Positions 3,675 to 23,383 are shown, counted from the stretch's first letter. The stretch is 24,801 nucleotides of DNA from a virus (IMGVR_UViG_3300023174_005420:1-24801), one strand, 5' to 3'. Notes: a model not told the origin generated them from the sequence alone. Translations and numbers: made by a program.

Positions 3675-3679
3675 ATTCA

Positions 3680-4287: not shown

Positions 4288-4693
4288 GGAAACCCTCATT
4301 CTTGCTCGATTGCGACAACACCGAGATCATTCCCATGAGGCGAGGCACATCCCACACGCAGAGAGTCCCCATGTCCGAGAGGTCATCCAATGGCACGCAG
4401 TCATGCCACAGCACGGTCTTAGCCACTTTTCTCACCCGGCCCTCGATCTGATCCAGTTCCTCCGATGTCAGAAGACGACCTTCTTTCCACAATTCAGAAT
4501 AAGAATACTGCCCAGCTTCTGCGGGATGCTGCCGGATATAAACCCGATTCCCATCCCGGTCTTGTTCATCGTTATGAGATTGAGCGGAGAAAAAACGCTG
4601 TATCCCGCGTCCAAAACTGGATTGCCATAGCCATCTCCATCCTTTCTCTGGCTGTTTCTCTTTTCGCCCTGGTAAAATAAAACCAGCGCTCAT
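4262..4693 (-). CDS. Possible early protein, 143 aa, 5' half antisense to a membrane-protein gene
   Basis: The frame is open from junction J3 to junction J2 with ATGA overlaps at both ends. The C-terminal 68 residues (LTSEELDQIEGRVRKVAKTV ... VPRLMGMISVLSQSS) do not overlap any other gene and look like a genuine small phage protein. The N-terminal half, opposite the plus-strand gene at 4465-4680, is Trp/Arg-rich and looks like antisense sequence. Either the plus-strand gene was inserted just behind the start codon of this gene, or the true start is internal. Confidence 0.4.
   Translation of the reverse strand: MSAGFILPGRKEKQPEKGWRWLWQSSFGRGIQRFFSAQSHNDEQDRDGNRVYIRQHPAEAGQYSYSELWKEGRLLTSEELDQIEGRVRKVAKTVLWHDCVPLDDLSDMGTLCVWDVPRLMGMISVLSQSSKNEGFRQAQEGQI
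4465..4680 (+). CDS. Small C-terminally anchored membrane protein, 71 aa
   Basis: The product has a soluble acidic/basic N-terminal part (MSEDDLLSTIQNKNTAQLL...), a positively charged stretch (RYEIERRKNAVSR) and a single C-terminal transmembrane helix (WIAIAISILSLAVSLFALV, about residues 52-70). This order predicts a cytoplasmic domain tethered to the inner membrane. It is encoded against the early operon. No Shine-Dalgarno is visible. Function is unknown; phage membrane accessory roles such as exclusion or lysis control are possible but unsupported. Confidence 0.6.
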   Translation: MSEDDLLSTIQNKNTAQLLRDAAGYKPDSHPGLVHRYEIERRKNAVSRVQNWIAIAISILSLAVSLFALVK

Positions 4694-4705
4694 ATCTGGC
4701 CCTCC
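4688..4705 (-). repeat. Junction repeat J3
   Basis: This has the same 18-bp core as J1 and J2 (GGAGGGCCAGATATGAGC on the minus strand); the flanking part upstream of the Shine-Dalgarno is diverged. Confidence 0.8.
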
Positions 4706-5163
4706 GTTTGCGCTTGCGCAGTTTCTTGCACCTTGGTTTTATCCCCCCATGGCAGACAACCCCGCAGAATGGTTCCTCTGTGTTGAAAAAGCCCTTGGCA
4801 TACTCCGGGCAGCTCGAGACTTGTTGCCACGGCCCGCAGATCGAGAAGCACTCCAGCAAGCATTGCGGCAGGCCGAAGAAGAGCTTGCCATAGCCAAGTC
4901 ACAAGCCGCTCAGTCACTCGGCTACGACCTATGTCGCTGCGCCTATCCGCCCGGCATATCCATCCGTCAACCAGATGGCAGTCATCGCTGCGAAAAATGC
5001 GGGCGCAATACCGATGAGGATTACTCCTCAAGAGGCGGCGGAGCATACTGAAGCCCCCATACCACCCCTTTGCTAAAGCATAATCTCCCGTCTTGGCCAA
5101 CGTCAGGCACGACGCCCAGGTCAGCCACATTCCCTCGCTGCGGAAAAGAAATCCCTCACTCAT
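4690..5163 (-). CDS. Doubtful 157-aa frame between junctions J4 and J3
   Basis: The frame begins at a good Shine-Dalgarno (GAGGAGGGCAAAATATG) and is joined to both neighbours by ATGA overlaps, which is why it is listed. Its composition (many Trp, Cys, Arg and Leu) is that of antisense to the zinc-ribbon-like gene, and only about the first 37 residues are free of overlap. It may be a short real gene whose original 3' part was replaced, or no gene at all. Confidence 0.25.
   Translation of the reverse strand: MSEGFLFRSEGMWLTWASCLTLAKTGDYALAKGWYGGFSMLRRLLRSNPHRYCARIFRSDDCHLVDGWICRADRRSDIGRSRVTERLVTWLWQALLRPAAMLAGVLLDLRAVATSLELPGVCQGLFQHRGTILRGCLPWGDKTKVQETAQAQTEGQI
4749..5051 (+). CDS. Zinc-ribbon-like small protein, 100 aa
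   Basis: An N-terminal helical part (about residues 8-57, with ADREALQQALRQAEEELAIA likely a coiled coil) is followed by four cysteines spaced as a zinc site: C62-R-C64 and C81-E-K-C84, in YDLCRCAYPP and HRCEKCGRN. Such proteins bind DNA, RNA or protein partners; no enzymatic motif is seen. It is encoded opposite to the early operon inside the J4-J3 segment. No Shine-Dalgarno precedes the ATG. The conserved cysteine layout makes this strand the believable one here. Confidence 0.72.
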   Translation: MADNPAEWFLCVEKALGILRAARDLLPRPADREALQQALRQAEEELAIAKSQAAQSLGYDLCRCAYPPGISIRQPDGSHRCEKCGRNTDEDYSSRGGGAY

Positions 5164-5176
5164 ATTTTGCCCTCCT
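5159..5176 (-). repeat. Junction repeat J4 (diverged)
   Basis: On the minus strand this reads AGGAGGGCAAAATATGAG. It keeps the Shine-Dalgarno, spacing and ATGAG of J1-J3 and codes EEGKI-stop at the end of the RHH protein. Confidence 0.65.
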
Positions 5177-5309
5177 CTTGCTGCTTAGATTTTACCAATC
5201 GGATCAGGAAAGACCTGATCACTTGTCCGGGCTTGAGGCCCTGTTCATCAGCCATGCGGGCTATTTCCCGATGGAGATCGTTCGGTATGCGAATGCTGAA
5301 TGTTTTCAT
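5160..5309 (-). CDS. Ribbon-helix-helix (Arc/CopG-like) regulator, 49 aa
   Basis: The 49-aa product has the RHH layout: a short basic beta strand (MKTFSIRIP), helix A (NDLHREIARMADEQ), a Gly turn and helix B (KPGQVIRSFLIRLVKSK). RHH dimers insert the strand into the major groove of palindromic operators. It is the first gene of the leftward early operon and divides the operator at 5310-5341 with the divergent RHH gene, so it probably represses its own promoter and perhaps the opposite one. The stop overlaps the next frame's start (ATGA). Confidence 0.82.
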   Translation of the reverse strand: MKTFSIRIPNDLHREIARMADEQGLKPGQVIRSFLIRLVKSKQQEEGKI

Positions 5310-5341
5310 TTCGGGTAAATTTATGTTACAAATTTACCGAA
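5310..5341. promoter_or_regulatory. Palindromic operator between divergent RHH genes
   Basis: TTCGGGTAAATTT (5310-5322) and AAATTTACCGAA (5330-5341) are inverted copies apart from one extra G, spaced by ATGTTAC. A related heptamer GTGTTAC lies at 5374-5380. The palindrome abuts the start codon of the leftward RHH gene, where a bound RHH dimer would block its expression. Confidence 0.6.
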
Positions 5342-5381
5342 CCAGCAACAAAAAAATTGCAAAAATTTTATTTGTGTTACA

Positions 5382-5738
5382 TTGCCACTTGTGAAACAGG
5401 AAAAAACCAAACGCAATTTCTCGATCCGACTCCCCGAGGAGGTCATTACATTGCTCGACGAAATCGCCGCAAATACCGGCCTCAACATCACCCGCAACAA
5501 TGTCGTAGAGCAGGCGTGCGAATGGTTTGTCCGCACCTACCGAGCAAACGGCGACCGCTCCCTCACCGAAGCCGACATGCGCGACCTCGAAGCCTTCCTG
5601 ATTGAAAGACTCGCACCGGGAAAAGCTCTTCCCAAGAGCCAGCCCGACCCTGCTGGTGTCAAGACCCTGAGAGCGTCCGCGAGTTTCGATTCTACGTCCT
5701 CAACAGCTACGACCAAAAGCTCCCACCCGGCTGGATAG
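5382..5738 (+). CDS. RHH regulator, apparently frameshifted near the 3' end
   Basis: The N-terminal part carries a second ribbon-helix-helix domain (KRNFSIRLPEEVITLLDEIA ... NNVVEQACEWFV). The start is TTG at 5382 or GTG at 5391 (giving MKQEKTKRN); neither has a Shine-Dalgarno. The last 27 residues (ASASFDSTSSTATT...) look like out-of-frame reading. From about 5667 a different frame gives PESVREFRFYVLNSYDQKLP then PGWIGQIHDLTS and stops at 5764, only 7 nt before the next gene. One missing base near 5664 would explain this, so the gene may be broken, phase-switched or affected by a sequencing error. It probably regulates the divergent promoter with the 49-aa RHH protein. Confidence 0.7.
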   Translation: MPLVKQEKTKRNFSIRLPEEVITLLDEIAANTGLNITRNNVVEQACEWFVRTYRANGDRSLTEADMRDLEAFLIERLAPGKALPKSQPDPAGVKTLRASASFDSTSSTATTKSSHPAG

Positions 5739-8918: not shown

Positions 8919-10022
8919 ATGAGACGGCATAACGAGGTTTCGGTTTATTGGCGGGAGGAGGCGGGGCGGCATCCGGCTTGGTATTACCGCGTGCAGATTG
9001 ATGGCCAGCCAAAGAAGTTTTCCACCGGCGTGACTAAGCACACGGAGGCGGGGCGCAAGGAGGCGATGCGGGCGGCTGAGAAGCTGGCGGCGGCGCTGCG
9101 CTCGAAGGATGAGCACCAGCTTGCGGCGGTCGTGAAGCGGCCGGGCTATGCGAAGTGTGGGGAGGTGGCGGATTTGTTCGAGCTGCATGGGCCTGAGAAG
9201 TCGAAGGCCAAGGCGGTTTCGAGATTTGGCGCTTATGTGCGGGCGGTGAGCGGCAAGGCGGATTGGCGCGAGGTTTCGACTCATCTTGTGCTGACGCCGG
9301 AGGCGATGCGGTCTTGGATTGATGCCAAGATAAAGGCGGGCAAGTCGGAGAGCGGGACCCGCTCCGATGTCCAGGCTGTGCGTCAAGTGGTAGCCCAGCG
9401 CCGGATGCACATTTTCAAAGAAATCAAACTCCCGAACCTTGATGAGTTTTACAAGGTGTCGGGCGGTGCGGCTCCAGACCAGAGCTATGATCCTGTAAAT
9501 CGGCAAGTGATGCGGGCGATGGATCGGGCGGCGAGGATCCCGCTGCGCAAGGCCAACCCGCGTGTGTGGGCGATTTACTGGCTGATGCGCAAGGCGGGCC
9601 TGAGAAATAGCGAGGTCGAGAAGCTGGAATGGAAATGGGTTGAATTTAAAGACGACAAGTCGGTTGAGATTGCCATGATTAGGCGGGATAATTGGAAATC
9701 GAAGAATGGCAAGTATGGCCGCGTGCCGTTTAATCCCCGTCTTATGCGTTTGATTCGTGCTGTGCTCGGCCAGGATGGGGACTATGTGATCCCCAGGACA
9801 AGCGAAACGGACGCCTACAACCTCACTCACTACGACATCAATGAATTTGTGCGGCGGTTTATTCCCGACGGCAGCAAGGGAGCTTACAACCTACGGAAAG
9901 AATTTGGCTCTGCCATTGTCGAGCGCAATGGGATCGAAACCGCTGCGAAGCTCCTGCGGGATAGCATCGCCGTGGTGGAGGCCCACTACTTCGGCCTGCT
10001 GGACCGCCCGAAACCGCTGTAA
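8919..10022 (+). CDS. int: Phage tyrosine integrase
   Basis: The 367-aa protein has the two-part layout of phage integrases: an N-terminal DNA-binding and SAM-like core region (to about 190) and a C-terminal catalytic domain. Box I is AGLRNSEVEKLEW (R229), the box II Arg is in YNLRKEF (R326) and the nucleophile is in VEAHYFGLL (Y357). The usual box II His (HxLR) is Tyr323 here and the second His/Trp position appears to be Asp348, so it is a divergent member. It lies beside the tRNA-Arg attP core, whose recombination with a host tRNA-Arg gene it should catalyse. The start ATG is directly behind a row of repeats. It converges on the late operon. Confidence 0.92.
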   Translation: MRRHNEVSVYWREEAGRHPAWYYRVQIDGQPKKFSTGVTKHTEAGRKEAMRAAEKLAAALRSKDEHQLAAVVKRPGYAKCGEVADLFELHGPEKSKAKAVSRFGAYVRAVSGKADWREVSTHLVLTPEAMRSWIDAKIKAGKSESGTRSDVQAVRQVVAQRRMHIFKEIKLPNLDEFYKVSGGAAPDQSYDPVNRQVMRAMDRAARIPLRKANPRVWAIYWLMRKAGLRNSEVEKLEWKWVEFKDDKSVEIAMIRRDNWKSKNGKYGRVPFNPRLMRLIRAVLGQDGDYVIPRTSETDAYNLTHYDINEFVRRFIPDGSKGAYNLRKEFGSAIVERNGIETAAKLLRDSIAVVEAHYFGLLDRPKPL

Positions 10023-10067: not shown

Positions 10068-13000
10068 TCACGGCCCAGTTGGGGCGAGCATGTCGGCTTG
10101 GGTCGAATTTCGGTTGGCTATGGCGGCGTCGTATTCCTGCTTGGCGCGGTCTTTGAGGTCGGGGCGGGCGAGGAGGATGCGGTATTTGGCGGCGGTGGCG
10201 GCTTTCTCCAGGGCGCGGGTCATGGCTTTGGCTTTGATGTCCCATGTGGCTTTGTCGTAGCGGGGATCGGAGAGGACGAACTTCTCCAGCGCGGCGATGC
10301 TGAGGGCTCCCATGTCTTTCTGCATGGCGCTGATCTCTTCGGAGGTGAGGCGGACTTTGACGCCTTCGACGGTGAACTCCGGTTTGACTTGGTTTGGGAT
10401 GGCTCCGGCCTCGGCGGTGTATTTGTAAACCTTGCTCATTTCGGTGAGCGCAGGGCTGCCTTTGATGTAGGAGACCATCGAGGGGTTGAAGAGCACATTG
10501 AAGAGCGTGTTGCTGTCCTTGGCCCAACGCTCGATGGGTTGGCCGGTGATGTCGTATTTCTGCGGGAGGGTTTGGCTTTGGCCGGGGAGCTGGGCTTTGA
10601 GTTCGTTGATGAATTGCCGAGCCGGGGAGCTGTCGCGGGTTTCGCGGGCGGCGTTGTCGGTGAGTTGCATCCATTGCCTTGCGGCGGTGGGGATGAAGGT
10701 GCCGGGGGCGTCGGCGGCGGTTTTGAGGAGAGCGCCGGGGATGTTGTCGTAGCCGACATCTCGGGCGAATTGATTGAGGCCGGTGAGGAGGGGTTGCTCG
10801 ACGAGGGAGTTCATGGCTCCGGTGGCTGCGCCGCCTGCGTAGGCGAGCCAGTTGAGGCCGGTGGCGGCAAGGCTTTGCTTCTTGCCTTGGAGTATGTCTT
10901 GCTTGATGGCTTCTTGATTCTCGCGGGAGTAGGCACCCATGGCGACGCCGATGGAGAGGGGCTGTGCCCAATCGTAGCCGATCACCATGTCGTCGCGCTG
11001 TTGTTTCTGAGGGGTCCAAAAGTTGCCGGTCATGAGGGCGCGTTTGAGGGCGCTGGTGTTGAGTTTGTAGGATCCCCAGCCCATGGCGCGGTTGAGGTTT
11101 CGCTTGTCTTCGTCTTTGGCGTCTCCACCAGCGGAGATGATGCCGAGATGGGCGAGCCAGTAGCCGGTGGCGACAAGGCCGGTGGTGCCGACGAGGGCGC
11201 GGGAGAAGGAGTCAGTGAAGGCTTTCTGGTCGAACTCGCGGGAGCTGGAGAGCATCGGCGCGAGGCTTTGGTAGGCGGTGTTGATGAATCCAAGCGGGGA
11301 AAATTCCACGGCGCGGGTGAGAATCGAGCCGGGGACTTGGGTAAATTTCATCAGGAGGGAGCCGATGCCCCAGCGTTGATTGAAATTGAGGACGCGGCGG
11401 AGCCCGCTGAGTGTGCGGCTGGCGACATTGGGGTCTTGGTAAATGGCTCGGCCAGCATCCATGCGGGCGGCTGTCACCATGTCGGTATCGGGCGCGAGCA
11501 TGGGGTTGCCATTTGCGGCGGCAGCTTTCATGCGGGTGTCGAGGCTGGAACGGAAGGCGGATTCGTAGAAGCCACGGTCTGAGATAGAGAGGACGAGGCC
11601 GAGAGTGGATTCCAGTTGGCGAAGGACGGGAGCGGTGAAGGTGGGGCCGCTAAGGGCGGAGATGTCGGAGGCGTTGTATTTGCCCGAGGATTGCAGGCGG
11701 CCGAGGCGGACCAGCGTATCGACGCCCTCAGCGATGCTTCCCATGCGGCCACGGCCTTCCGAGCGGGCGAAGTCGTAGCCTGCTTTGATGTCGCCTACTC
11801 CGGCTCCGAGACCCATCATGCGTTCACCGAGTGAAAGCCCTGTGCGGGTGCGCTCGCCGGTGCCCAGGGAAACCAAGGCATCCATCGGCACGGAGACGGT
11901 ATCGGCAGTGAGATCGGCGGTTGCCATGAGTGTGTTGCCAACCACATTTCGGATTACCGTTTTGGGATTCAGCAGCATGGCAATGGTCTGGATGGCGTCC
12001 ACTTTATCGAGGAAGCCTGGCGGCATGAAGTCGCGGTAAACGACATCGAGGGCTTCGGCGGCTTTGACGAGCTTGATGCGGGGGTCGGTGGCTTTCTCGT
12101 GCTGGGCGAGGATGCGGCGGACCTTGGCGCTGTGCTCGGCGCTCCAGTGCGGGATGCCAAGCATCTTGGCCATGCCTGCGTGGAGGCTGGCATCGGTGAG
12201 CTTGCCTTCGCGGTTGAGGCGGATGAGGGAGCCGAGCTTGGATTTATCCAGGCGTCGGTCGGAATCGGCGGTGGCGAGGAGGTCTTGGAGGACTTTGGCG
12301 CGGGTGTCTTGCGTGGTCTTGAGGAAATCGCGGACGATGCTGCCGGAGATGCGGGCGGCTCCTTTGTCTGAAAGACCTTGGCCGGTGAGGATGGAGGAAG
12401 TGGCGGCTTGGGCGGCAAGCGGCGTGGGTGCGCCGAGGATGGCTTCGCGGATGGCGATGTTGACTTGCACGGCATCGACTCCGGCGGGGAGCGAGGATTT
12501 GATGAGGTCTTTATTGCCGACGATGGCGGCGGTGGTGGAGTCGCGGCGGAGCTTGTCCACCTCGCCTTGCAACTGCCCGGCCTCGGTGATCTTGGCTTGT
12601 ATATCGGCCTTCTGCTTGTCGGTCTTGGCGGGCTTGGTGGCGGCGGCTTGAAGTTGGCTCTGGGCGAAAAGCTCGATGCCTTGCGGCCCGAGGCGGCCAA
12701 TCATTGAGAGGGCTTGGATGGCGCGGCCTTGGTCGGTGGCGCGGGTGGCCATCATGTTGGCGATGGAGGCGGCATCGGCATGGCGGTTTCGGTTTTGGAG
12801 TTGCGCCATGAGTTCCATGCCAGTGGCGTAATCCTCGGCGGTGGGCTGCCAGCCTTCGATGGCGGGCTTGCCCATGAGGTCGGTGAAAGCGGTGTCGATG
12901 CTGCCTGCCGAGTCGATGCGGGCTCGGGCGTTGGCGAGGGTTTGGGCGTTCGAGACGGGATCGTAGTCCAGCGAGGTGAGGCGGGATTTGACTTCGGGCG

Positions 13001-16000
13001 CAACGCCGGGAGCGGCTTGGAGGGATTGGCCGAACTTGCGGGGCTTGGGGCCAGTGCCAGGTTGCTCGTTTAAAAACTGAGGGCCCTCTTCCATGAGCAA
13101 GCCTTCAGATTTTGCACTATAAAAAAGGTCAGGATTATTTGGATCCGTTGCCGCGTAATCAAGCATTGGGAGTTGGGCTTGCCTTGAGAACAAAGTCAAC
13201 TGCTTCAGCAATTCAGATCGACCCCCCTTTTCTGGCGTGTGGAATATAAAACCATACGCGCCATCAAGCGCCGCTGTTTCCATGATCCGACGCTTAAGCT
13301 CTACTAATTTACTTGGATCGTTTTCGTATGAACTAACATTTGGGATACGCTCTACAGCGGTAAGGCGTAGTTTTGTATTTAGGTAGAGAATATGACCAGC
13401 GTTAGGATCTCCCTGTTTAAGCACAGAAAGGAGTTCGTCAGATGTTTCTTGTTTGTCCATGTAAGGGAGCGTCGCTCTCCCTACACGCTCCCACTTTGCT
13501 TTAGTGGGTTCAAAAATAGGAGCTGGCTTGGAAGGTATAGAGACATCCACAGCTTCAGGGCCGATACCTTTACTGGTTAAATTGAAGCTGCTGTCACCAG
13601 TAAAAACACTGTTGTCTCCATTAAACCCTAATTTAAATGAGTAAAACTTTGTTCCGTTGGTGATGACATGATCAACAACCTCAAAGCCCATTGCATTTGC
13701 AGCCTCGTCTAATCTTCGGGTGATATTTAAATCAGCACCGCTTGGCGTAGGATCTCCGCTTGGATGGTTGTGGGAAATAACAATTCTATTGAAGTTTTGC
13801 TTTGTATTCTTCCTGACTCGTGCAAGCGAACGAGTTAATTCACGCGCATGCAAAATTCCCTCATTGATTGTTCCAACACTTACAACCTCGCTGGATACAA
13901 CCTTATCCTTGGAATCAAGGACCGCCACTTTAATGCTTTCCACATAAGGCGATCTGAGCGGAAGCAGTGTTGCTACAAGGTCGGCAGGAGCTGCAATTTG
14001 GGTTCCAACAATGTTCCAAACAGGGATTTTCCCATCTACAAGATCTGGAAAAATAGACGATGCCTTGCCACGCATTGCTATGGCTCCGGCAAGAGATTGC
14101 CAGTTGCCTTGCAATCCTTCTTCTACAAGGCGGTCGTAGTCTTGCTCTGATACTTCACTGGATCCGGCGTCAGGCGACTTGATTCCGGCGGCTGCGTAGC
14201 TAGGATTTGAGGTAATCCCTTCCGTTTGCGCAAAGAGTTCAGCCTTGAAATCACTTTGGTAAGGTGAGGCCAATCGCTTGTCTCGTATCTGTGCCAAGGT
14301 TGAGGATATTCCATTGCTTGCTTGCTGGAGGTCTTTAGCTCCGCCTGAGGTTGCATACACCGATGCTCGCTCAAAGTCAAATGGAGTCGGAATAGATGTC
14401 CCCTCCCCGCTGATCACTTCGGGTGAGCCTGTTGGTTCAGGCGCTATGGGTGCGCTTGCCACTGAGGCAGAGGCGGCAGGGGAAAGATCGGTGAGCGGTG
14501 TGCGGCGGACATTGGCAAAGGCGTCGTAGATTTCTGCTTCGCGGCCATAGGTTGCGCCGGGGGTCTCGGTAGGGAGAGCGTCCGTTGGCAGGGTAGTGTT
14601 CACCGGAGCAGGCGCAGGGTTAACCTGTGGGTTAACTGCGGCAGGCGGGGCGAAGGTATCATTTGATACCGCAGGCGGCGGGGCGAAGGTCGAGCCGAAT
14701 GCTTCATCGAGGGCGGTCTGGTCGATGGGGATTTCGGGAGCGCGGACTTGGCCGAGGGTGCGCGGGGCTTGGCCGGTGGGGGCGGATGGTGCCGGGGAGG
14801 AAATAGGGGTGAAGTTTTGCGGGACTTCGGCGGGGGCTGCGGCTTGGCGTCCGGCGGCGATCTCGATGGCGGCTGGTCCGACTTCGCCGATGACTTCTCC
14901 GAAGACGGCCTTGGGGTTTACTGGGTCTCCGGCGGCGACGGATCCGGCTACCTCGCCTGCTCCTCCGAGCCCTCCTTGGATGACTCCTTCTGTGACGGCG
15001 AGGCGGACAGGGGTCTTGGCGGCGGCGCGGAAGACTGAGCCGACTCGCCCGGCGATGCCTGCGGAGAGGGCGTCGAAGGCGGCGACGGGAACTCCTCGCT
15101 TGAGGGCGGCGTCTTTGGCTTCGGCCATGAGCGTTTCGTTGCTGAAGAATTTGGCGATGCTCTCGGGGTTTTTGGGATTCATCCCGGCGGTCTGCAATTC
15201 TTCGAGGATTTTGCTGCCGTATTCTGTGGCAAAGGAACCGGCGGCTGTGCCTCCGACCATGCCTGCGGTGAATCCTCCGCCTGCGCCGATGACATTACCC
15301 ACGCCTGGCACAACCGATCCAGCGGCACCGACCGCAAGCGCAGTGGCACCACCTGTGGCAAGGCCGCCTGCGAGGGCGGGCCAGCTTCCAGCAAGCCCTT
15401 CGGTGATGATATTTGCCGTAACCTCAAAGGGATTTTTGGCAAAGGCTTTGACGGCATCCCAGCCTTCGGCTTGCTGGTAGGCGGCGTAGCCTGGGGCGAC
15501 ACGGCGGGCGGCTTTGTTGTATTCGATGCGGGCGATCTGCGAGGCGTCGTTCTCATCGAGACCATCGGTGGCCATGAGGGCTTGGCGGGCGGAGTCGAAA
15601 GCATTCTGCGCGGCGTTGGCTATTCCTTGGAGGGTGCCGACTTCCTTGGGAGATTCTTCGACGAGCATTTCCCCAGCGGCCATCGTTTGCATATTTGCAA
15701 GCTGCTTGGCGGCGGCGGCATTGGCCTCGGGGCTTACAGCCTGGGCGCGGCGGATGGTGACGGTGCCATCGGCGTTCACCGGGGCGGCTCCGAGTTGGAC
15801 TTTCTCGTATTCCGGCAGGCCGAGGATCTCGCCCAGGGCGGCGGCCTGCTGGCGGCGCTGGCCCTCCTCGGGGTCGCGGTAATCGAGCACGCCAAGGGCA
15901 TTGGCGAGGTCGGACTTGAGGACGGGGAGATTCTCGGTGGGCGTGGTGGCCTCGGCGACGGCTTGCTGGGTGGCGGCTTCGTTTGCTTGGATCACATCGA

Positions 16001-16295
16001 GGAGGGGATTGCCCTTCGGTAATGTCGGCGCAGTAGGCGCGTTGCCTCTGATGATGTCCATGAGGGGATTGCCCTTCGGCGTCGGTGCGGGCTCGGCAGG
16101 CGGCTCGCTTGACGCAACATCCTGCGGCGCGTCTCCCGTAAGGTCCATGCTATCCAACGCACCGACGAGATCGGATTGCGGATACGGCACCTCTCCCTGC
16201 TCAGGCAGCGGGGTGGAGTTGGCGATAGCGAGTGCCTCTGAGCGTGGAGACGAGCCAGAGGAACGGATGATGTCCAGAAGGGGGTTTTGAGCCAT
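10068..16295 (-). CDS. Giant virion/ejection-type polyvalent protein with RadC-like JAB domain, 2,075 aa
   Basis: The 2,075-aa protein ends the late operon, the place of the large internal virion protein in podoviruses. The N-terminus holds three copies of NPL(L/M)D(I/V)I (residues 4-10, 76-82, 96-102). Residues about 300-365 are Gly/Ala-rich and hydrophobic, a candidate membrane-inserting segment. Residues about 785-875 form a RadC-like JAB domain with the full JAMM site H842-x-H844-x7-S852-xx-D855. Residues about 965-1065 look like a second JAB domain in which the metal site is lost (HTP at H1019). The remainder is long and mostly helical, with LNPKTVIRNVVGNTLM near 1450. Such multi-domain phage proteins are known as large polyvalent proteins; injection with DNA and a peptidase/deubiquitinase-like action in the host are inferred. 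Confidence 0.85.
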   Translation of the reverse strand: MAQNPLLDIIRSSGSSPRSEALAIANSTPLPEQGEVPYPQSDLVGALDSMDLTGDAPQDVASSEPPAEPAPTPKGNPLMDIIRGNAPTAPTLPKGNPLLDVIQANEAATQQAVAEATTPTENLPVLKSDLANALGVLDYRDPEEGQRRQQAAALGEILGLPEYEKVQLGAAPVNADGTVTIRRAQAVSPEANAAAAKQLANMQTMAAGEMLVEESPKEVGTLQGIANAAQNAFDSARQALMATDGLDENDASQIARIEYNKAARRVAPGYAAYQQAEGWDAVKAFAKNPFEVTANIITEGLAGSWPALAGGLATGGATALAVGAAGSVVPGVGNVIGAGGGFTAGMVGGTAAGSFATEYGSKILEELQTAGMNPKNPESIAKFFSNETLMAEAKDAALKRGVPVAAFDALSAGIAGRVGSVFRAAAKTPVRLAVTEGVIQGGLGGAGEVAGSVAAGDPVNPKAVFGEVIGEVGPAAIEIAAGRQAAAPAEVPQNFTPISSPAPSAPTGQAPRTLGQVRAPEIPIDQTALDEAFGSTFAPPPAVSNDTFAPPAAVNPQVNPAPAPVNTTLPTDALPTETPGATYGREAEIYDAFANVRRTPLTDLSPAASASVASAPIAPEPTGSPEVISGEGTSIPTPFDFERASVYATSGGAKDLQQASNGISSTLAQIRDKRLASPYQSDFKAELFAQTEGITSNPSYAAAGIKSPDAGSSEVSEQDYDRLVEEGLQGNWQSLAGAIAMRGKASSIFPDLVDGKIPVWNIVGTQIAAPADLVATLLPLRSPYVESIKVAVLDSKDKVVSSEVVSVGTINEGILHARELTRSLARVRKNTKQNFNRIVISHNHPSGDPTPSGADLNITRRLDEAANAMGFEVVDHVITNGTKFYSFKLGFNGDNSVFTGDSSFNLTSKGIGPEAVDVSIPSKPAPIFEPTKAKWERVGRATLPYMDKQETSDELLSVLKQGDPNAGHILYLNTKLRLTAVERIPNVSSYENDPSKLVELKRRIMETAALDGAYGFIFHTPEKGGRSELLKQLTLFSRQAQLPMLDYAATDPNNPDLFYSAKSEGLLMEEGPQFLNEQPGTGPKPRKFGQSLQAAPGVAPEVKSRLTSLDYDPVSNAQTLANARARIDSAGSIDTAFTDLMGKPAIEGWQPTAEDYATGMELMAQLQNRNRHADAASIANMMATRATDQGRAIQALSMIGRLGPQGIELFAQSQLQAAATKPAKTDKQKADIQAKITEAGQLQGEVDKLRRDSTTAAIVGNKDLIKSSLPAGVDAVQVNIAIREAILGAPTPLAAQAATSSILTGQGLSDKGAARISGSIVRDFLKTTQDTRAKVLQDLLATADSDRRLDKSKLGSLIRLNREGKLTDASLHAGMAKMLGIPHWSAEHSAKVRRILAQHEKATDPRIKLVKAAEALDVVYRDFMPPGFLDKVDAIQTIAMLLNPKTVIRNVVGNTLMATADLTADTVSVPMDALVSLGTGERTRTGLSLGERMMGLGAGVGDIKAGYDFARSEGRGRMGSIAEGVDTLVRLGRLQSSGKYNASDISALSGPTFTAPVLRQLESTLGLVLSISDRGFYESAFRSSLDTRMKAAAANGNPMLAPDTDMVTAARMDAGRAIYQDPNVASRTLSGLRRVLNFNQRWGIGSLLMKFTQVPGSILTRAVEFSPLGFINTAYQSLAPMLSSSREFDQKAFTDSFSRALVGTTGLVATGYWLAHLGIISAGGDAKDEDKRNLNRAMGWGSYKLNTSALKRALMTGNFWTPQKQQRDDMVIGYDWAQPLSIGVAMGAYSRENQEAIKQDILQGKKQSLAATGLNWLAYAGGAATGAMNSLVEQPLLTGLNQFARDVGYDNIPGALLKTAADAPGTFIPTAARQWMQLTDNAARETRDSSPARQFINELKAQLPGQSQTLPQKYDITGQPIERWAKDSNTLFNVLFNPSMVSYIKGSPALTEMSKVYKYTAEAGAIPNQVKPEFTVEGVKVRLTSEEISAMQKDMGALSIAALEKFVLSDPRYDKATWDIKAKAMTRALEKAATAAKYRILLARPDLKDRAKQEYDAAIANRNSTQADMLAPTGP

Positions 16296-16309: not shown

Positions 16310-16915
16310 CTACGGCCCCCAAAAATTTGATTTCGGTTGTGGAAACACAGCATCAACGGCCCATTGGCCAAAACCATTTAAAAGCCCGGCCTTGATCTGA
16401 TCTTGCGTCGCACCTTGGGCAGCCGCGTCCCGCGCATAGGAGCGGATCGTCTCGGCGTTCATCTTGTCGGGCTGCGCTGCTTTTGCGGCTGCGGTCGCAG
16501 CGGCCTTGCCTGCGTAGGCTTTGCCGAGAGCTTCGTATGTTTTCGCAGCAGTCTGCTGCTTCTGCATGTTTTCAAACTCGGCGGTGTGAGCCATGACTGC
16601 GCCGGACATTTTGTTGGCGTTTCCCTTGGTGTCTTCGAGGGCTTTAGCGAGGGAGGTTTTGAATTTCTGGCCCTGCTCTCCGTAGTTGTCGGAGAGGCTC
16701 ATCATGGCTTGGCCGGATGCCATGGATTGCTGCATCTTGGCGTTGTCTTGCTGGTTCTGTTCGACGCGTTTATTCACCATGCCCATGACGGTGTTGAACG
16801 AGGAGGTGAGGGAGTTCTGGAGGTTGGCGTTCCCTTGGGCGGTGATCTGGGAGGCGTTGTTGCCTGCGTTGGCGAGGATCTCGGCGGATCGGTCGGGTGT
16901 GGGGTTATATTGCAT
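16310..16915 (-). CDS. Helical virion-associated protein, 201 aa
   Basis: The protein is Ala/Gln/Asn/Met-rich and almost wholly helical (NANLQNSLTSSFNTVMGMVN, then VEQNQQDNAKMQQSMAS), typical of internal core or tail-associated virion proteins. It lies between TfuA (11-nt overlap) and the giant protein, so it is probably part of the same virion subassembly, like the smaller internal proteins of T7-like phages; this is inferred from position. The C-terminus has a short globular motif (LLNGFGQWAVDAVFPQP). No enzyme motif is visible. Because it directly follows YcaO-TfuA it is a candidate target of their modification. Confidence 0.65.
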   Translation of the reverse strand: MQYNPTPDRSAEILANAGNNASQITAQGNANLQNSLTSSFNTVMGMVNKRVEQNQQDNAKMQQSMASGQAMMSLSDNYGEQGQKFKTSLAKALEDTKGNANKMSGAVMAHTAEFENMQKQQTAAKTYEALGKAYAGKAAATAAAKAAQPDKMNAETIRSYARDAAAQGATQDQIKAGLLNGFGQWAVDAVFPQPKSNFWGP

Positions 16916-17906
16916 GGGGGGTCAGGAGTTGGTGGTTGAGGGTGAGGGAGACGGTGTCCATGTTGGCTCCGGTGGCGTTATGCCAATCGCGGAGGGATTG
17001 GCGGAGGGCTTCGAGTTGGGCGTGGCGGAACCATTGGGCGTCGGTCCATTTGTGGGTGGACATCCAGGCTTCGGCGGCTTCGGGGGTGGTGATGCCGAGG
17101 CGGTGCCAGATGCGGGTGCTTGCAGCGTGGATGTGGGCGGGGGTGGCGACGATGCCAAGGTGGTTGGCAAATTGCTCGAGGAGCAGGAGGTCGGTGGTGG
17201 CGTCGCGGTCGGCTGGGTTGACGCAGTGGTGCAGGCGTTTGCCGTCTCCTACGGGGAGGTCGTTGGTGAGGAGGCCGTTGAGGTGTGCGGTGTGGATGTG
17301 GCGGGGCGTGTCATGTGACTTGGGTGACATGACATGGCGGGCGTGGTCGATGGCAGCAGCGGCGTCGAGGGCTTTCTGGTCTATGTAGCGGGCTTGCAGG
17401 ATGTCCACCACATCGCCGAGGTCGCGGCGGAGGCGTTGCCAAGTGCGCTCGGGGTAGTAGATGGCGCGGGCGGTGGCGAGGATGTGGCCTGCTTCGTCTA
17501 TGTGAGCTTCTGCTGTGGCGCGGAGGTTGACGAGGGGGATGGAGAGTGGTCGGTAGCCGTCTTCGGCGCAGGCGTGAGCGAGGGCGACATCCGCATCGTC
17601 GGTGCAGGATTCCTCGGCATACCACCCGGCGATGATGCCGACGGGCTCGGCTCCGTAGCGGGCGCATTCCACAGCGCGGAGTGCGCCGAGGCTGCCTGCG
17701 CCGATGACGCGGCATCCCTGCTCAATGGCAAAGAGGATTTCCTTATGCCAGGGGGCGAGGCTTTGGTGGAAGAGGCCGTCGATGAGGATGAGGGTGTCTG
17801 GGCCTTCAAGGGCGGCGGCGGCGATGTCGCCTTGCTGCGCGGGGGGGCGGAGGTCGGCCTCGGCGGGGATATTGGCTGGGCGTGTGGGACCGAGGAAGAT
17901 TTTCAT
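16905..17906 (-). CDS. tfuA: TfuA-like thioamidation partner protein
   Basis: The 333-aa product contains the TfuA core: MKIFLGPT start, LRPPAQQGDI (19-28), LILIDGLFHQ (39-48), APWHKEILFAI (51-61), VIGAGSLGALRAVE (67-80), and DGYRPLSIPLVNLRA (116-130). In the studied systems TfuA works with a YcaO enzyme to install a backbone thioamide, probably by helping to deliver sulfur. A helical C-terminal extension of about 180 residues follows the core (with WQRLRRDLGDVVDIL). The start is the ATG at 17906, in an ATGA overlap with the YcaO stop, so the two proteins are made together. A longer in-frame start at 17993 would lie inside ycaO and begins with an unnatural Arg/Pro-rich stretch. The 3' end overlaps the helical virion gene. 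Confidence 0.9.
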   Translation of the reverse strand: MKIFLGPTRPANIPAEADLRPPAQQGDIAAAALEGPDTLILIDGLFHQSLAPWHKEILFAIEQGCRVIGAGSLGALRAVECARYGAEPVGIIAGWYAEESCTDDADVALAHACAEDGYRPLSIPLVNLRATAEAHIDEAGHILATARAIYYPERTWQRLRRDLGDVVDILQARYIDQKALDAAAAIDHARHVMSPKSHDTPRHIHTAHLNGLLTNDLPVGDGKRLHHCVNPADRDATTDLLLLEQFANHLGIVATPAHIHAASTRIWHRLGITTPEAAEAWMSTHKWTDAQWFRHAQLEALRQSLRDWHNATGANMDTVSLTLNHQLLTPHAI

Positions 17907-19072
17907 TTGGCGGCGAGGGCGCGGCGGCCGGGCTGGGAGTAGTCGAACTTGTAGCCTTCGAGCGTGGGCACAATGACTCTCACCACAGAGCACGGGTAGT
18001 CGTGGGTGAACTCATAGACGAGCGGCTCGGGGATGCCTGCGGCGTCGAGTGCGGCACAGAGGGTGTCGATGTCCTGCTCAAAGGTATCGCTGGAGCGGTC
18101 GGCGTGGGCGTTTGCCGAGATGGTGGGGCGGCGGTAACAGTCGGCGAGAAAGGCGGCGTTGTCGGCGGCTTTGACGCGCTCGTAGCGTTCGTGCAGGAAA
18201 TCGTCGCGGCTCCCAGCGATCCACACGGCGCGGGCTTGCACGGTCTCGGTGAGGGCGCGGGCTTGAGCTACGGCGGGATCGAGATGGGAAGCGTAGCCTT
18301 TGTGCAGGCCATGGCCGGATTCGCAGTCGATGAGGTAGCAGATGTAAGTGGGCACGCCGATGTCGCTGGTCACATCAAGCAGCACGGGGGTGATGTCTGC
18401 ATCGCGGATGGTGCGGACGAGCCGGGCTACGGTGGCGTCGGTAATGGAGTCGAGGTCCACGCGAGGAGCCGAGGCGGGGCGCTCCTGGGCAATGGCCGTG
18501 GCATCCCGCTCGATGCACTCGTAGAGACCTCCACAGACGGCTTCAGCGTAGGTATTTCCAGAGGAGAGGCCATTGCTGGTGCTTGCAAAAGGGGTGGCTG
18601 CGAGGGGATGGCCTGCGGGGTGGCGGGCTTGCAGGGAGATGGCGCACGCTGGCACATGGGCAGGGCGGGCGCTGCGGATGCCTCGGGCTTCCGCCCAATA
18701 CATGGGCATAGTGGGGTCGATGACGGCGCCGAGGAGGAGCGGCAGCCGAGTCTCGACGGCGTGGCCGAGTTGCGCAGCGGTGGCAAACATGGTCCGCACG
18801 GGAGCGGTCTCGCCGACATGGCGCTCAAAGCCTTCCATCATGGCACTGCATTTAGCGGCGGCAGGGGTTGCGCCTTTGCCGCTATCCACCGCCAGCACAA
18901 TAGCGTCGGGCCGTATGCACTGAGCCACACAGACGCCGATGCGGTCGAGGCCGGTGATCTCGGCGAGGCGGGTAATGCCTGCGGCGTGGAAATGCGGGCG
19001 CATGCGGGCCAGAGTGTCCTCGGGCGTGCAGGCGCGGTGGGCTCCGTCTAGTCTGTGCTTGGTTACGACCAT
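17903..19072 (-). CDS. ycaO: YcaO-domain ATP-dependent cyclodehydratase/thioamidase-type enzyme
   Basis: The 389-aa protein shows the YcaO ATP-grasp-like motifs: S76-x3-E80-x2-E83 in CSAMMEGFERH, the TSNGLSSGNTYAEAV loop (165-179) followed by LYECIERDA (183-191; E185, E188), and AQARALTETVQARAV (269-283) with GSRDDF behind it. YcaO enzymes activate a peptide amide oxygen with ATP to form azolines or, with TfuA, thioamides. The start at 19072 is inside the preceding virion gene (10-nt overlap); the stop overlaps tfuA (ATGA). A longer in-frame start at 19402 is antisense-like Pro/Arg/His-rich sequence and is rejected. There is no adjacent short precursor gene. The pair sits in the virion operon, so a virion or host protein is the likely substrate. 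Confidence 0.92.
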   Translation of the reverse strand: MVVTKHRLDGAHRACTPEDTLARMRPHFHAAGITRLAEITGLDRIGVCVAQCIRPDAIVLAVDSGKGATPAAAKCSAMMEGFERHVGETAPVRTMFATAAQLGHAVETRLPLLLGAVIDPTMPMYWAEARGIRSARPAHVPACAISLQARHPAGHPLAATPFASTSNGLSSGNTYAEAVCGGLYECIERDATAIAQERPASAPRVDLDSITDATVARLVRTIRDADITPVLLDVTSDIGVPTYICYLIDCESGHGLHKGYASHLDPAVAQARALTETVQARAVWIAGSRDDFLHERYERVKAADNAAFLADCYRRPTISANAHADRSSDTFEQDIDTLCAALDAAGIPEPLVYEFTHDYPCSVVRVIVPTLEGYKFDYSQPGRRALAAK

Positions 19073-20238
19073 GCGAGTTCCATGCTGCGGAGCGTGATGC
19101 GGGCGAGGAGGCGGCGTAGGGGGGTGGTGATGCGAGCAGCAATAGCTTGTCCGTGCTGGCAGTAAAAGCGCAACACGCGGTCGCTGGCGCTGTGCAGCAT
19201 AATGCGGCGGTAGCGTTGCCAGCGGGCAGTCTCTGTGCCGAATGCCGCCCGGGCAATCCAGCAGGCAGCGGCAGCGGCTCCGATCACGGCGCTGGCTCCC
19301 ATAGCGGCTCCTTGAAGACCCATACCGGCAGCGTTGTCGGTGGCACGAGCTTGCATATAGGAACCTTGCAGGGAGGCGTTGTTGTTCTGCACCGTGTTCC
19401 AACGGGAATCGAGCATGGTGGCGTTGACGCCCGCCACATTTCCGGCCATTTGATTGGCGTTGTTGTAGGTGCTACCGATCATGTTGCCAGTTATTCCCAG
19501 AGTGGAAGAGCCCATTCCCAACCCCGGTTGAATGGCGCGGGCGTATGGGTCAACAGCAAGGTTGCCTTGCGCAAGCTGTGAGCGCAGGTTGCCTTGGGCA
19601 AGGGTGGTGTTTGCGGCTTGGCCGAGGAGTGAGCCTGTGCGGCCGAGGCGGGTGTCTCGGTTGCCGACAAGCATTTGGTTGGTATTCCCGGCGAAGTTGC
19701 GGCGCTCGGCTTGGCGGGCGGTGGCGTAGGCGTCGCGGTTGAGGACTTCGGCGGCGAGGGCTCCGGTGCCGGTGCCGAGTCCACGGGCGGACATGCCGGC
19801 GCGGGCTTGCTGGGTGGCGGCGCGTTCCTGCTCTGCGCTGAGGCTGCGGCCGAGGGCGAGGTCGCCTTCGGCTTGGCGCTGGAGCTCACGCTCGATGTCG
19901 GTGCCTTGGAGGTCTTGAGCCGAGGTGGCGGCTAAATCCGTGGTGCTTTTGGCCAGTGAACCTAATTCCGTGGCTTGTCCTTCGGCCGCGATGAGTTGGT
20001 CGGTGGCGCGTTGGGTGTAGGCGTTGTTGGAGGAATCCAGCTTGGAAGCCACTTTATCGACGGAGCCGAGTTGCAGGGTTTCCAACTTGCCATACGCGTC
20101 GATCTGGCTGCCGAGTTGCGCTTTGTAGCTTGACGCACCTTGAGTGTCGCCCTGCTTCATGAGCTTGGTATAGTCGATGGGCTGCGCTTGTGGTGGAGCA
20201 GCCTGCATCTTTGGCTTTTGCGCTGATGAACCGCCCAT
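19063..20238 (-). CDS. Virion-associated protein with C-terminal CWIAR-type module, 391 aa
   Basis: Most of the protein is Ala/Gly/Gln/Asn-rich and helical with repetitive segments (LAQGNLRSQLAQGNLAVDPY; repeated 'RG.G.G' and 'NN' motifs), as in internal or tail-associated virion proteins. The last about 65 residues are different: a basic, aromatic module beginning CWIARAAFGTETARWQRY and ending LRSMELAWS, which resembles a C-terminal module I recall from other phage virion-associated proteins. The start at 20238 shares its A with the previous gene's TAA (TAATG) and follows AAGGGGG; a longer start at 20334 is rejected. Its 3' end overlaps ycaO. Confidence 0.7.
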   Translation of the reverse strand: MGGSSAQKPKMQAAPPQAQPIDYTKLMKQGDTQGASSYKAQLGSQIDAYGKLETLQLGSVDKVASKLDSSNNAYTQRATDQLIAAEGQATELGSLAKSTTDLAATSAQDLQGTDIERELQRQAEGDLALGRSLSAEQERAATQQARAGMSARGLGTGTGALAAEVLNRDAYATARQAERRNFAGNTNQMLVGNRDTRLGRTGSLLGQAANTTLAQGNLRSQLAQGNLAVDPYARAIQPGLGMGSSTLGITGNMIGSTYNNANQMAGNVAGVNATMLDSRWNTVQNNNASLQGSYMQARATDNAAGMGLQGAAMGASAVIGAAAAACWIARAAFGTETARWQRYRRIMLHSASDRVLRFYCQHGQAIAARITTPLRRLLARITLRSMELAWS

Positions 20239-20600
20239 TACGCTATCCCCCTTTCGAGGCCGACGCGGGCGGCAAGTTTGGTCCATGGGTAGGCGTGGAT
20301 GCGGAAGGCGTTGTGGCGGCACCAGGCGGCCCACTCATGCGGGCGGGTGGCGACGCGGAGGAACTCGGCGACGGGGTTGGCGTGCCCGGTCGCGGCGGCA
20401 AGCGGGACGAACCAGGTATTTGGAGGGAGGTCGTAGGTCATGGTGTTGGTCTCGGGGGAGTAGTGGGCTTCGTGGGCGAGGAGGAAGACGGTGGGCGTGC
20501 TGTGGACAAGGCCGTGGCGCAGGTGCCAGCCGAGGAGATCCTCGAAGGGCTCGGTGCTGTGCTCTCGCTGCCAGAGGATGGCTTTGTCGAAGGGGGTCAT
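20238..20600 (-). CDS. Small podovirus-type conserved protein, 120 aa
   Basis: The layout (HLRHGLVHSTPTVFLLAHEA ... NTWFVPLAAATG ... RIHAYPWTKLAARVG) matches small proteins found among tail genes of podovirus-like phages: an opening helix, a 'HGLV.S.P..F..A' strand, a hydrophobic middle with 'W.V.LAAG', and a 'H....IH.Y....LA' end. Function is unknown. It is linked to both neighbours by TAATG overlaps, so it is part of the late operon between the collar protein and the 391-aa virion protein. Confidence 0.75.
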   Translation of the reverse strand: MTPFDKAILWQREHSTEPFEDLLGWHLRHGLVHSTPTVFLLAHEAHYSPETNTMTYDLPPNTWFVPLAAATGHANPVAEFLRVATRPHEWAAWCRHNAFRIHAYPWTKLAARVGLERGIA

Positions 20601-21304
20601 TAGGCTTTAATGCAATACAACATGGCGATGTTGTCGGGGCGGGTCTCAGTGGTGCCTAGGGGGCTTTGGCTGGAGCTAGTGAAGGTGTGCAAGTGGTCAA
20701 TATTTGCGGCATATATTGATGAACCATTGTCGCCCGTGTGATTTGAACTAAACACAGGGTTTAATCCTGTTCCGCCTTGGCCAAGTCCTGTCCCCTTAAT
20801 GTTGTGAGAGTGACTTGTATTTCTATCCATACCATCACTTGTTCCAGAATGCGTGTGGCTGATTATTGCATCTGCTTGCTTCTGTCCAAATGTGCCAGAG
20901 GCCGTTCCGTCCCTATTTGTTCCAGACCCGCGCACGAAATATCCGCACAGGTCGGGCACGCGGAAATGCGTCGTGCCCGTGCCTCCTGCACCATTGGTCT
21001 CGCCGTAGGTCGTTCCGATCACCGCAAATAATGCAGCGTATGTGCCTGTCTTGGAATACTCATTCCCATTGGCAGCCAGCCAGCCAGTTGGCACGGTGTT
21101 CATGGCAAATGCCATGATCGCTCCCGTAGGGACAAGAATGATGCCCGAGTTGAGCTTGGCTTGGGTCACAGCACCGTCGGCGATCTTTGCGGCGGTCACC
21201 TCATTGTCTGCCAGCGCCACGGTTGGCGTGCCGAGCAGGTTGAGGTTTGCCGGGGTGACGATTTCGTTGGAGGTAAAAACTTTTCCTGGGGTGACGGTTG
21301 CCAT
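20600..21304 (-). CDS. Tail collar domain protein (tail fibre tip)
   Basis: The 234-aa protein has a short N-terminal stalk (VTPANLNLLGTPTVALADNE) followed by a phage tail collar domain: VPTGAIMAFAMNTVPTGWLA, ALFAVIGTTYG, FRVPDLCGYFVRGSG. The C-terminal half is a Ser/Thr/Gly/His-rich tip with HTHSGTS, TSHSHNI and IDHLHTF, a pattern seen in fibre tips where histidines bind metal ions. It is probably a receptor-binding fibre. The tip coding region (about 20690-20870) is visibly AT-richer than its surroundings, as expected for a domain that is exchanged between phages. The stop overlaps the next start (TAATG). Confidence 0.85.
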   Translation of the reverse strand: MATVTPGKVFTSNEIVTPANLNLLGTPTVALADNEVTAAKIADGAVTQAKLNSGIILVPTGAIMAFAMNTVPTGWLAANGNEYSKTGTYAALFAVIGTTYGETNGAGGTGTTHFRVPDLCGYFVRGSGTNRDGTASGTFGQKQADAIISHTHSGTSDGMDRNTSHSHNIKGTGLGQGGTGLNPVFSSNHTGDNGSSIYAANIDHLHTFTSSSQSPLGTTETRPDNIAMLYCIKA

Positions 21305-21307
21305 TGG

Positions 21308-23383
21308 TTAATTTAAGGTTCTGGTTTCTTGCGGAGACATGCCGGAGCGGGCGGCTTCGGCGGTGATGGTGCGGAGGATGGGGCGGCCAGCGGAGGTGCG
21401 GAACCGGAGATCGAGGGCGGTGGCCTTGCACCGGAGCGGGGCCTTGATGGTGTAGTCCTCGGTGGAGCCGCTCGCGTTCGTGAGGGAGGCGATCTGAAAG
21501 TCTTTGTCGTAGTCGGTGGTCACGGCATCGAGCGTGCAGGCCGCACCGTCATCGAGCACGACGCTGGCTTTAGCCCGCAGGAGGCGCTTGGCGTTGAGTC
21601 CGTCGAATCCATAGCGGCGGGTGAGCAGGAGGCCCGCCACATTGCTGATGCCGAGGCCGGAGGCGGTGTCATCCGCCCCGGTCTCTTGCTCATCGAGCAG
21701 AAAGAGCTTGCCTGTGGTGGTGGCGGCAAAGAGGCGGCGTTCGGTGCCGTAGTCCGAGACGAGCAAACGGTCGATTGAGAATCCGTAGGTGTCGCGGCTC
21801 TCCCATTGTTGGTTGAGCATGTTGAAAGCAAAGAGGCTGTTTGGCTGGGTGCTGGTGCCGAGTGGAAGGGCGAGGTAGTAGCGGTTGCCGTGGTAGATGC
21901 CGTTGCTCAGGTGCGCCGTCGTGGCATTGATGCCGCCTACGAGGTCGGCGATGGGGTCCGAGAGTGTCTGCGTGGATCCGCGCAGCTTGAGGTCGAATTG
22001 ATTGTCGAGGCGGTAAACGCCATTGTCCGAGAGGAAAAAGACATACACGCCTGCGGTGGCGATGCTGCGGCGGGCAGAGCAACCGACCTCGTTGGTGAGG
22101 AGTTGCAGGCTAGACCGTCCACCGTCGAGGGTTACTCCATCCGCCCCGAAGACAGGCGTGGCAAGCCAGATGGATTTGCGGCAGAAGATGAGCACTTGGC
22201 CTTCGGCGTAGGGGTGCAGAGCTACGATGTAGTCGTTGCTCCCTGCATTAGCGCGGAAAGATTTGGAAACGGGATCGTAGGTCTCGGCATCGAAGACATC
22301 TGAAATGAGCAACTCATCGCGGTTGCGGGCGATGATGAGCGTGTTGTTGAGATAGGTCGCCGTGCTGGTGGATGGCAGGCGTGAGTAGGTGACGCCAAGC
22401 GGATGCGAGCCTTGGGCCACTCGGGTGAAGGGATTTGCCAGCACGCCATCCCACACCAGCGCGGCTTGCACCCGCTGAGTGATGATTTGCCCAGTGTCCG
22501 AGGCAGATGTAGCAGCGGGAACAGTGAAAGAAAATTGCGTCGAGCTGATACGCGTAATCTCAAAATCGGCCAGGTATCCCGCATTCGCCGCTCCGCTGAT
22601 ACGCACTACCTCGCCGGTCTGGTAGGGGTGCGTGCCCAGCGTGGTGGCTGTGGCCGTGCCGCTGGCCTGAGTGAGCGTCTGGAGGCGGAGGAGCGACTCC
22701 TCCCGAGTGCGGAGCAGGTAGAGCTTGTCAAAGGCTTGGATGATCTCGATGTCATCACCGGCCACAATGGTATCGGTGGTTGGATAAGAAATGGTTTGCA
22801 GGGCTGCACCGTCGCGCCACAGGTAGCAGGCGTTGGGCCCGGCGAGGACGATGTATTCATTTGAGTTGTCCAGGCGTGGGGAGCTGTAGATGCCAGCGCC
22901 GATGATACCGCCGGTGTAGGTATTTTGAATCACCGGCCCACGATTGGCGAGGAGCGTGCCGCTGGCCGATGCGCCGGGGTCGGCGGTCATGGTGTAGGTG
23001 AAGGCATTTGCTGCATTCGCGCCGCTTACCGTTATGTAGAAATTCCCATTATATTGCGGTTGAGCGGCTCCGCGAATGTTCACATAGTCGCCCGTGGCGT
23101 AGCCATGCGCGGTGAGAATAGCTGTGGCCGCAGTGCCCACACGAGTTATGGAGGAAATGGTTTGATCCGGCGCAAGTTGGAATGGCACCGTTACCGGGTC
23201 GCCGATGTTGCCGATGGATTCTGCCAAGCGCTTCGCGCCTTTGCGGGTCTGGGCCACGCCTCGGTCGAGGCGCATGTTTTCGGCGTATTGGACCATGCCC
23301 GCTTGCAACTGGAGCGGGTTCAAGCGGGAGGCCATGCCGAGGAATCCGGCGTCGCCTTCTACGATTGTTTGGTCATCGGGCAT
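21308..23383 (-). CDS. Nozzle-like tail protein with two inserted FCCH-like repeats, 691 aa
   Basis: The protein begins with QAGMVQYAENMRLDRGVAQT-type sequence and continues as a long beta-rich protein with recurring blades (IWLATPVFGADGVTLDGG, VYVFFLSDNGVYRLD, KLFLLDEQE), a design like tail nozzle or hub beta-propeller proteins of short-tailed phages. Two inserted repeats (residues about 77-148 and 234-305; HGYATGDYVNIRGAAQPQYN and THPYQTGEVVRISGAANAGY) resemble the FCCH-like domains often found in phage structural proteins. AGGT precedes the ATG. The collar protein gene follows after 3 nt. It should form the distal tail tube through which DNA leaves; the assignment is from architecture and position, so a different beta-propeller virion protein remains possible. 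Confidence 0.72.
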   Translation of the reverse strand: MPDDQTIVEGDAGFLGMASRLNPLQLQAGMVQYAENMRLDRGVAQTRKGAKRLAESIGNIGDPVTVPFQLAPDQTISSITRVGTAATAILTAHGYATGDYVNIRGAAQPQYNGNFYITVSGANAANAFTYTMTADPGASASGTLLANRGPVIQNTYTGGIIGAGIYSSPRLDNSNEYIVLAGPNACYLWRDGAALQTISYPTTDTIVAGDDIEIIQAFDKLYLLRTREESLLRLQTLTQASGTATATTLGTHPYQTGEVVRISGAANAGYLADFEITRISSTQFSFTVPAATSASDTGQIITQRVQAALVWDGVLANPFTRVAQGSHPLGVTYSRLPSTSTATYLNNTLIIARNRDELLISDVFDAETYDPVSKSFRANAGSNDYIVALHPYAEGQVLIFCRKSIWLATPVFGADGVTLDGGRSSLQLLTNEVGCSARRSIATAGVYVFFLSDNGVYRLDNQFDLKLRGSTQTLSDPIADLVGGINATTAHLSNGIYHGNRYYLALPLGTSTQPNSLFAFNMLNQQWESRDTYGFSIDRLLVSDYGTERRLFAATTTGKLFLLDEQETGADDTASGLGISNVAGLLLTRRYGFDGLNAKRLLRAKASVVLDDGAACTLDAVTTDYDKDFQIASLTNASGSTEDYTIKAPLRCKATALDLRFRTSAGRPILRTITAEAARSGMSPQETRTLN

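Follow-up and report, generated by a model that had tools for sequence, protein, structure and literature searches.

The ycaO-tfuA gene pair inside the virion operon of an uncultivated virus is a real and conserved phage-borne locus, and we hold with moderate confidence that it constitutes a backbone thioamidation system directed at a virion protein, for which the best candidate is the CW-box of the adjacent protein g395. The pair lies in a 24,801-bp virus record from IMG/VR, the whole of which is referred to here as the window (58% GC), and its surroundings are listed in Table 1. Consecutive genes overlap by 1 nt (TAATG) at g120/g395, by 10 nt at g395/ycaO, by 4 nt (ATGA) at ycaO/tfuA, and by 11 nt at tfuA/g201, in agreement with the coordinates, joins, and flanking virion-region genes given in a preliminary description of the sequence. 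Because the genes overlap, there is no room for a separate short gene between ycaO, tfuA, and their neighbours; no short precursor-peptide gene was found beside the pair among the open reading frames of the window, which sets the locus apart from thioamidated RiPP clusters, and in the cassette neither the ORF list nor profile searches revealed a gene for export or a leader peptidase dedicated to it. The overlapping joins and profile searches thus uphold the earlier statement that a short precursor and a transport gene are absent.

Table 1. Features of the window around the ycaO-tfuA pair.
Feature	Position	Strand	Description
ycaO	17903..19072	-	389 aa; ATP-dependent amide-activating enzyme, McrA/TfuA-associated type
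tfuA	16905..17906	-	333 aa; predicted ThiS-COSH hydrolase and sulfur-delivery partner of YcaO
g395	19063..20238	-	391 aa; helical Ala/Gly-rich virion-region protein directly upstream of ycaO; candidate substrate carrier
CW-box, last ~66 aa of g395 (CWIARAAFGTETARWQRYRR...)	19063..19263	-	candidate modified segment
Hydrophobic GASAVIGAAAAA stretch directly preceding the CW-box	19264..19299	-	seen in alignments
g201	16310..16915	-	virion-region gene downstream of tfuA
Giant virion-region protein	10068..16295	-	2,075 aa; RadC-like JAB domain (PF04002 E 1.7e-25)
g120	20238..20600	-	small gene upstream of g395; kept in homologous loci
Tail collar fibre protein	20600..21304	-	PF07484 E 8.5e-18; PHROG tail collar fibre
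g691	21308..23383	-	head-closure/stabilisation-like virion protein; PHROG matches to Hc3 and to a virion structural protein

Several further features of the window merit description. The g691 protein shows a 34% match with an annotated head-closure gene. The RadC-like JAB domain occupies residues 783-888 of the giant protein and recurs in relatives L006, L177, L021, and L172, while it was undetected in other relatives. A tyrosine integrase gene (8919-10022) lies beside the virion operon, without a match in phage records, and suggests a temperate phage. Two short overlapping ORFs at 1528-1955 have a common repeated start, M-K-[IL]-TTED-TE[DN]TE, a putative host or mobile repeat.

The locus is neither a chance arrangement nor an assembly chimera or single-contig artefact, because homologous loci with the same gene order occur in dozens of viral contigs; the placement of the pair within the virion operon, as originally described, is therefore shared by related phages. 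An IMG/VR scan returned close YcaO relatives in 45 contigs and TfuA relatives in 27, and profile-based scans found the pair in at least 80 IMG/VR contigs. The viral YcaOs form 22 clusters at 70% identity, with identities reaching down to ~30%, and the order ejection-like gene, ycaO, tfuA is kept from 98% to ~30% identity; in the YcaO tree, most phage YcaOs fall into two large groups. Neither protein has a tblastn match in 50,697 deposited phage records or a PHROG match, and no prophage copy of the cassette appears among the genome matches. The preliminary description knew of no such phage system, and searches of the accessible open-access literature turned up none. A defence system was also considered and set aside, as PADLOC matched none of the three proteins concerned (YcaO, TfuA, and a ThiS-like protein described below).

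The YcaO protein is a member of the PF02624 superfamily (E 6.1e-66, 223.4 bits against a cut-off of 25.7, profile positions 1-325 of 325; Pfam), with its RALTE helix and its conserved acidic residues for binding ATP and Mg. The intact motifs noted beforehand (S76, E80, E83, E185, E188, and the AQARALTE stretch) are present, and the ATP-binding residues are retained in an alignment of 17 YcaOs from phages, Azospirillum, and methanogens, in which E80, E83, E185, E188, R189, D190, R272, E276, and Q279 are invariant. The best-scoring model is TIGR03266 (McrA-glycine thioamidation), with 211.7 bits versus 108 for SagD, although this score falls below the equivalog cut-off of 365 and the protein is not a member of that family; the best PDB match is the MJ1094 YcaO (6pe3). 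Both genes are under purifying selection, with a median dN/dS of 0.16 for ycaO and 0.37 for tfuA.

TfuA likewise belongs to its family, PF07812, by profile (E 1.3e-30, 106.1 bits against a cut-off of 30; Pfam) and by fold, being matched to the solved Methanosarcina TfuA 6xp8 both in sequence (E 5e-20) and, through its predicted structure, in Foldseek (E 2e-13). The predicted core superposes on 6xp8 with Z 23.5 over 194 residues at 2.0 A (VIA-align), so that the intact TfuA core reported earlier is confirmed by profile and superposition alike; against NF033432 (TfuA-related McrA thioamidation protein), however, the score of 120.9 bits lies below the cut-off of 235.2, outside membership. S72 and K178, invariant in the alignment columns, are compatible with a putative Ser-Lys catalytic pair of the kind that would hydrolyse ThiS-COSH. 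Residues ~200-333 (window 16905-17306) form a C-terminal helical extension that is not present in methanogen TfuA; its part from 229 to 333 belongs to no Pfam family and in fold resembles SurA-like chaperones and trigger factor only weakly (Z 5.8-6.6). As a lead, the extension is perhaps a substrate-holding domain.

Independent support for the thioamidation reading comes from one sister subclade (14 contigs), in which a gene for an 88-residue ThiS-like carrier is inserted between ycaO and tfuA. This protein, found in the sister subclade only, has the features of a ThiS/MoaD sulfur carrier: it scores 34.3 bits against PF02597 (cut-off 22.5), matches the solved ThiS/CysO carriers 4n6e and 3dwg, and, in 13/13 copies read through, ends in AFAGG before the stop codon, giving a C-terminal Gly-Gly. 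The gene joins of the window contain no such gene, so the window phage would depend on a host carrier. Between ycaO and the gene for this carrier, contig L034 (5158-5376) has one more small ORF, for which no family was found; it recurs at the same place in L042 and L023, and its product is 72-74 residues long. According to published work, YcaOs that form thioamides outside habitats rich in sulfide tend to draw on a ThiS homologue in thiocarboxylated form, with TfuA as the hydrolase (PMC13063428). Given the McrA-type YcaO score, the TfuA fold, the ThiS carrier, and the Azospirillum relative, it is very probable, and well supported by homology, that the pair performs thioamide chemistry; the thioamidation function put forward in the preliminary description thereby gains from homology and from the carrier of the sister subclade, with the chemistry read across from homologues.

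Comparison with known systems places the phage locus beside, rather than within, each of them. The methanogen YcaO-TfuA system (McrA Gly465; TIGR03266/NF033432; 6pe3, 6xp8) shares the adjacent ycaO-tfuA genes, the catalytic residues, and the TfuA fold, and its substrate is a protein, McrA, as is proposed for the phage pair, for which it provides the precedent of a protein rather than a peptide target (PMC5589413); the phage locus differs in having no mcrA, two equivalog scores below cut-off, an extra TfuA C-terminal domain, and a position in a virion operon. Thioamidated RiPP clusters (thioviridamide TvaH/TvaI, thiovarsolin, and the std cluster) have YcaO and TfuA in common with it, whereas the phage locus lacks a short variable precursor, a leader peptidase, and an exporter, and its candidate substrate is conserved. 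The E. coli YcaO likewise acts on a structural protein outside the RiPPs, uL16 (PMC13063428), yet it does so without TfuA and belongs to a different YcaO group (38 bits for the window YcaO against the 700-bit cut-off of the E. coli YcaO model). The nearest cellular relative found is the ycaO-tfuA-thiS cluster of Azospirillum sp. TSO35-2, with 42% YcaO identity, a long TfuA, and a GG-ending ThiS-like carrier; it differs in being chromosomal, in having a separate downstream gene with a rhodanese-like N-terminal sequence (judged by eye), and in the absence of a CW-box.

What the pair acts upon is best approached through g395, whose predicted model is all-helical with low confidence (pLDDT 45). 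It has no profile match, and it is ejection-like by position alone. In alignments, the body of g395 is highly variable and the last 66 residues, the CW-box, are near-invariant in ycaO phages, with a Cys-Trp motif that is invariant across them. YcaO distances correlate with those of the CW-box (Mantel r 0.80, 44 contigs), TfuA (r 0.76, 39 contigs), and the g201 N-terminus (r 0.75, 28 contigs), versus r 0.27 for the g395 body; the CW-box and its own g395 body are correlated at r 0.23. Since the CW-box tracks YcaO and not its own protein body, a recombination junction is placed inside g395, directly before the CW-box and near the hydrophobic stretch, and the unit that moves comprises the CW-box, ycaO, thiS where present, tfuA, and the first part of g201.

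A CW-box gene stands directly upstream of ycaO in 17 of the 22 YcaO clusters, a count that takes in the variant CW-box motifs of L433 and L434. Where phages share one backbone, defined by a giant-protein C-terminal 1,000 aa that is 92-97% identical with and without ycaO, five of seven ycaO-minus sisters have no CW-box and the other two have a divergent one. In the main YcaO cluster the box is present in every contig (43/43), and the contrast with the 2/7 ycaO-minus sisters is significant (Fisher p 1e-5), with adjacency as a confounder. In near-identical phages lacking ycaO, the same slot holds a PAPS-reductase-like PP-loop enzyme with a CxxCxxCC protein, other inserts, or nothing. The PP-loop SGGKDST enzyme and the CxxCxxCC (PF03692) protein occupy the slot in L175 (~4156-5293), L184 (~4350-5457), and L187 (~3645-4767), and may together represent a different module for sulfur or metal chemistry.

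A strict tie between the CW-box and ycaO is ruled out, as the box is present without ycaO (L118, L174, L181, and Puniceispirillum phage HMO-2011) and a YcaO-linked box is missing in 5/22 YcaO clusters (L402-404, L397/398, L414, L419/L428, and L432). In L402-404 and L419, the upstream gene stops directly after the hydrophobic stretch; in L397 (record G002, also L153), a distance of ~16 kb separates ycaO-tfuA from the virion genes, and the one CW-box that this phage has is of the generic type. Some such lineages nest inside CW-box-linked ones in the YcaO tree, and some of the clusters may therefore represent later losses or moves. Hundreds of viral contigs (e.g., L279-L358) have the generic CW-box (CWVAREVYG...) but neither ycaO nor tfuA, and 0/79 generic loci have either gene within ~4 kb; this set was collected with the pattern CWVAREVY, and differences from the ycaO-type box over the first eight positions were therefore set aside. 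CFI-box-CTERM (NF041770) and the generic phage CW-box (e.g., HMO-2011 gp25) are related C-terminal boxes of the Cys-aromatic-hydrophobic-Ala kind that follow a hydrophobic stretch, but the generic box matches the CFI-box-CTERM model only weakly (17.6 bits, below the cut-off of 40), the box of the window has no match to it, and phages with the generic box lack ycaO and tfuA. Within the box, Gly334 and Cys326 are conserved with and without ycaO, so conservation does not single out a site. The CW-box is the candidate that offers the best lead to the target of the pair. Downstream of tfuA, contigs L115 (8386-9811) and L160 (10041-12337) contain runs of short genes starting MGG, several of which end in [ST]xLxFGG-type motifs; these are a possible second set of targets.

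In the mechanism proposed, YcaO would activate a backbone amide by means of ATP, and TfuA would take sulfide from a thiocarboxylated ThiS-type carrier and present the substrate, such that one C=O becomes C=S; the carrier would be the host's in the window phage and the phage's own in the sister subclade. The pair would be placed in the virion operon because its substrate is made there. As a guess, the modified site in the CW-box may be the invariant Cys326 or may lie around the invariant Gly334, within the tryptic peptide AAFGTETAR. A thioamide there might make the segment stiffer or shield it while the particle assembles or delivers its DNA, a benefit that is equally a guess.

From the organisation of the genomes, a virion-protein target is likely, and the evidence suggesting it consists of the YcaO and TfuA families, the invariant residues, purifying selection, the GG-terminal carrier, synteny, and co-variation with the CW-box; against it, co-variation of adjacent genes can arise from linkage alone, and the g201 N-terminus co-varies as strongly. 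The preliminary description had left the choice between a virion protein and a late host protein, and synteny and CW-box co-inheritance favour the former, despite the five clusters without a linked CW-box and the CW-boxes without YcaO. Thioamidation of a host protein late in infection, such as a ribosomal one, would tune translation or metabolism and reduce the virion operon to a means of late expression. A cellular YcaO target outside the RiPPs, uL16, has been published (PMC13063428), L397 (L153/G002) and L152 have the pair at a place apart from their virion genes, and the strong conservation of YcaO suits an unchanging substrate; we nevertheless consider a host target unlikely, given that the same virion-operon place is held in nearly all clusters even where YcaO identity has fallen to ~30%, and that YcaO tracks an upstream CW-box for which a host-directed enzyme has no need. 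It is quite improbable that the pair is simply cargo, a moron in a variable slot with no tie to the proteins encoded beside it, for recombination has its junction within g395, such that the C-terminus travels with the enzymes, and the same CW-box partner recurs from cluster to cluster; the variable contents of the slot in near-identical phages do speak for cargo, as does the GC content of ycaO (0.66) and tfuA (0.65), which exceeds the 0.57-0.63 measured in virion-region genes nearby and would be compatible with acquisition from another source.

Two further readings concern the product. Many YcaOs are cyclodehydratases, and a different backbone reaction on the CW-box, for example a thiazoline at the invariant Cys, would account for the invariance of the Cys-Trp motif across ycaO phages; the TfuA partner, the preference for TIGR03266 over SagD, and the ThiS carrier all point instead to thioamidation, the same Cys is kept where ycaO is missing, and the thiazoline reading is accordingly very improbable. 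The least probable of the readings considered is that a phage protein gives rise, at its C-terminus, to a RiPP-like bioactive peptide that is then set free, since the candidate core is almost invariant, against RiPP cores that diverge quickly, and the cassette offers no means of export or leader removal; to its credit, the candidate segment is C-terminal, and the combination of YcaO with TfuA is typical of RiPP clusters with thioamidated products (PMC8120280, PMC6511847). Returning to the virion-protein target, the fullest form of the proposal, in which phages possess a dedicated thioamide machine, equipped in one subclade with a sulfur carrier of its own, and use it on the backbone of a virion protein, yielding the first thioamidated viral particle and, in the CW-box, a new substrate class on a swappable cassette, is tentative, with a chance slightly short of even.

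To our knowledge, few systems for enzymatic backbone thioamides exist, namely McrA, the ribosomal protein uL16, and some RiPPs. Here, a large group of uncultivated bacterial viruses carries, in its virion gene block, enzymes known elsewhere for backbone O-to-S exchange, and these viruses probably make this rare modification, most likely on a protein of their own particle. If this is true, a viral lineage that retains YcaO, TfuA, and at times a ThiS carrier among its virion genes despite wide divergence would bring thioamide modification to virus particles, with a mass change of +15.98 Da on one defined phage protein as the direct readout. The phages would furthermore provide a natural system for the role of a thioamide in a structural protein, and the recombining cassette would mark the candidate substrate sequences.
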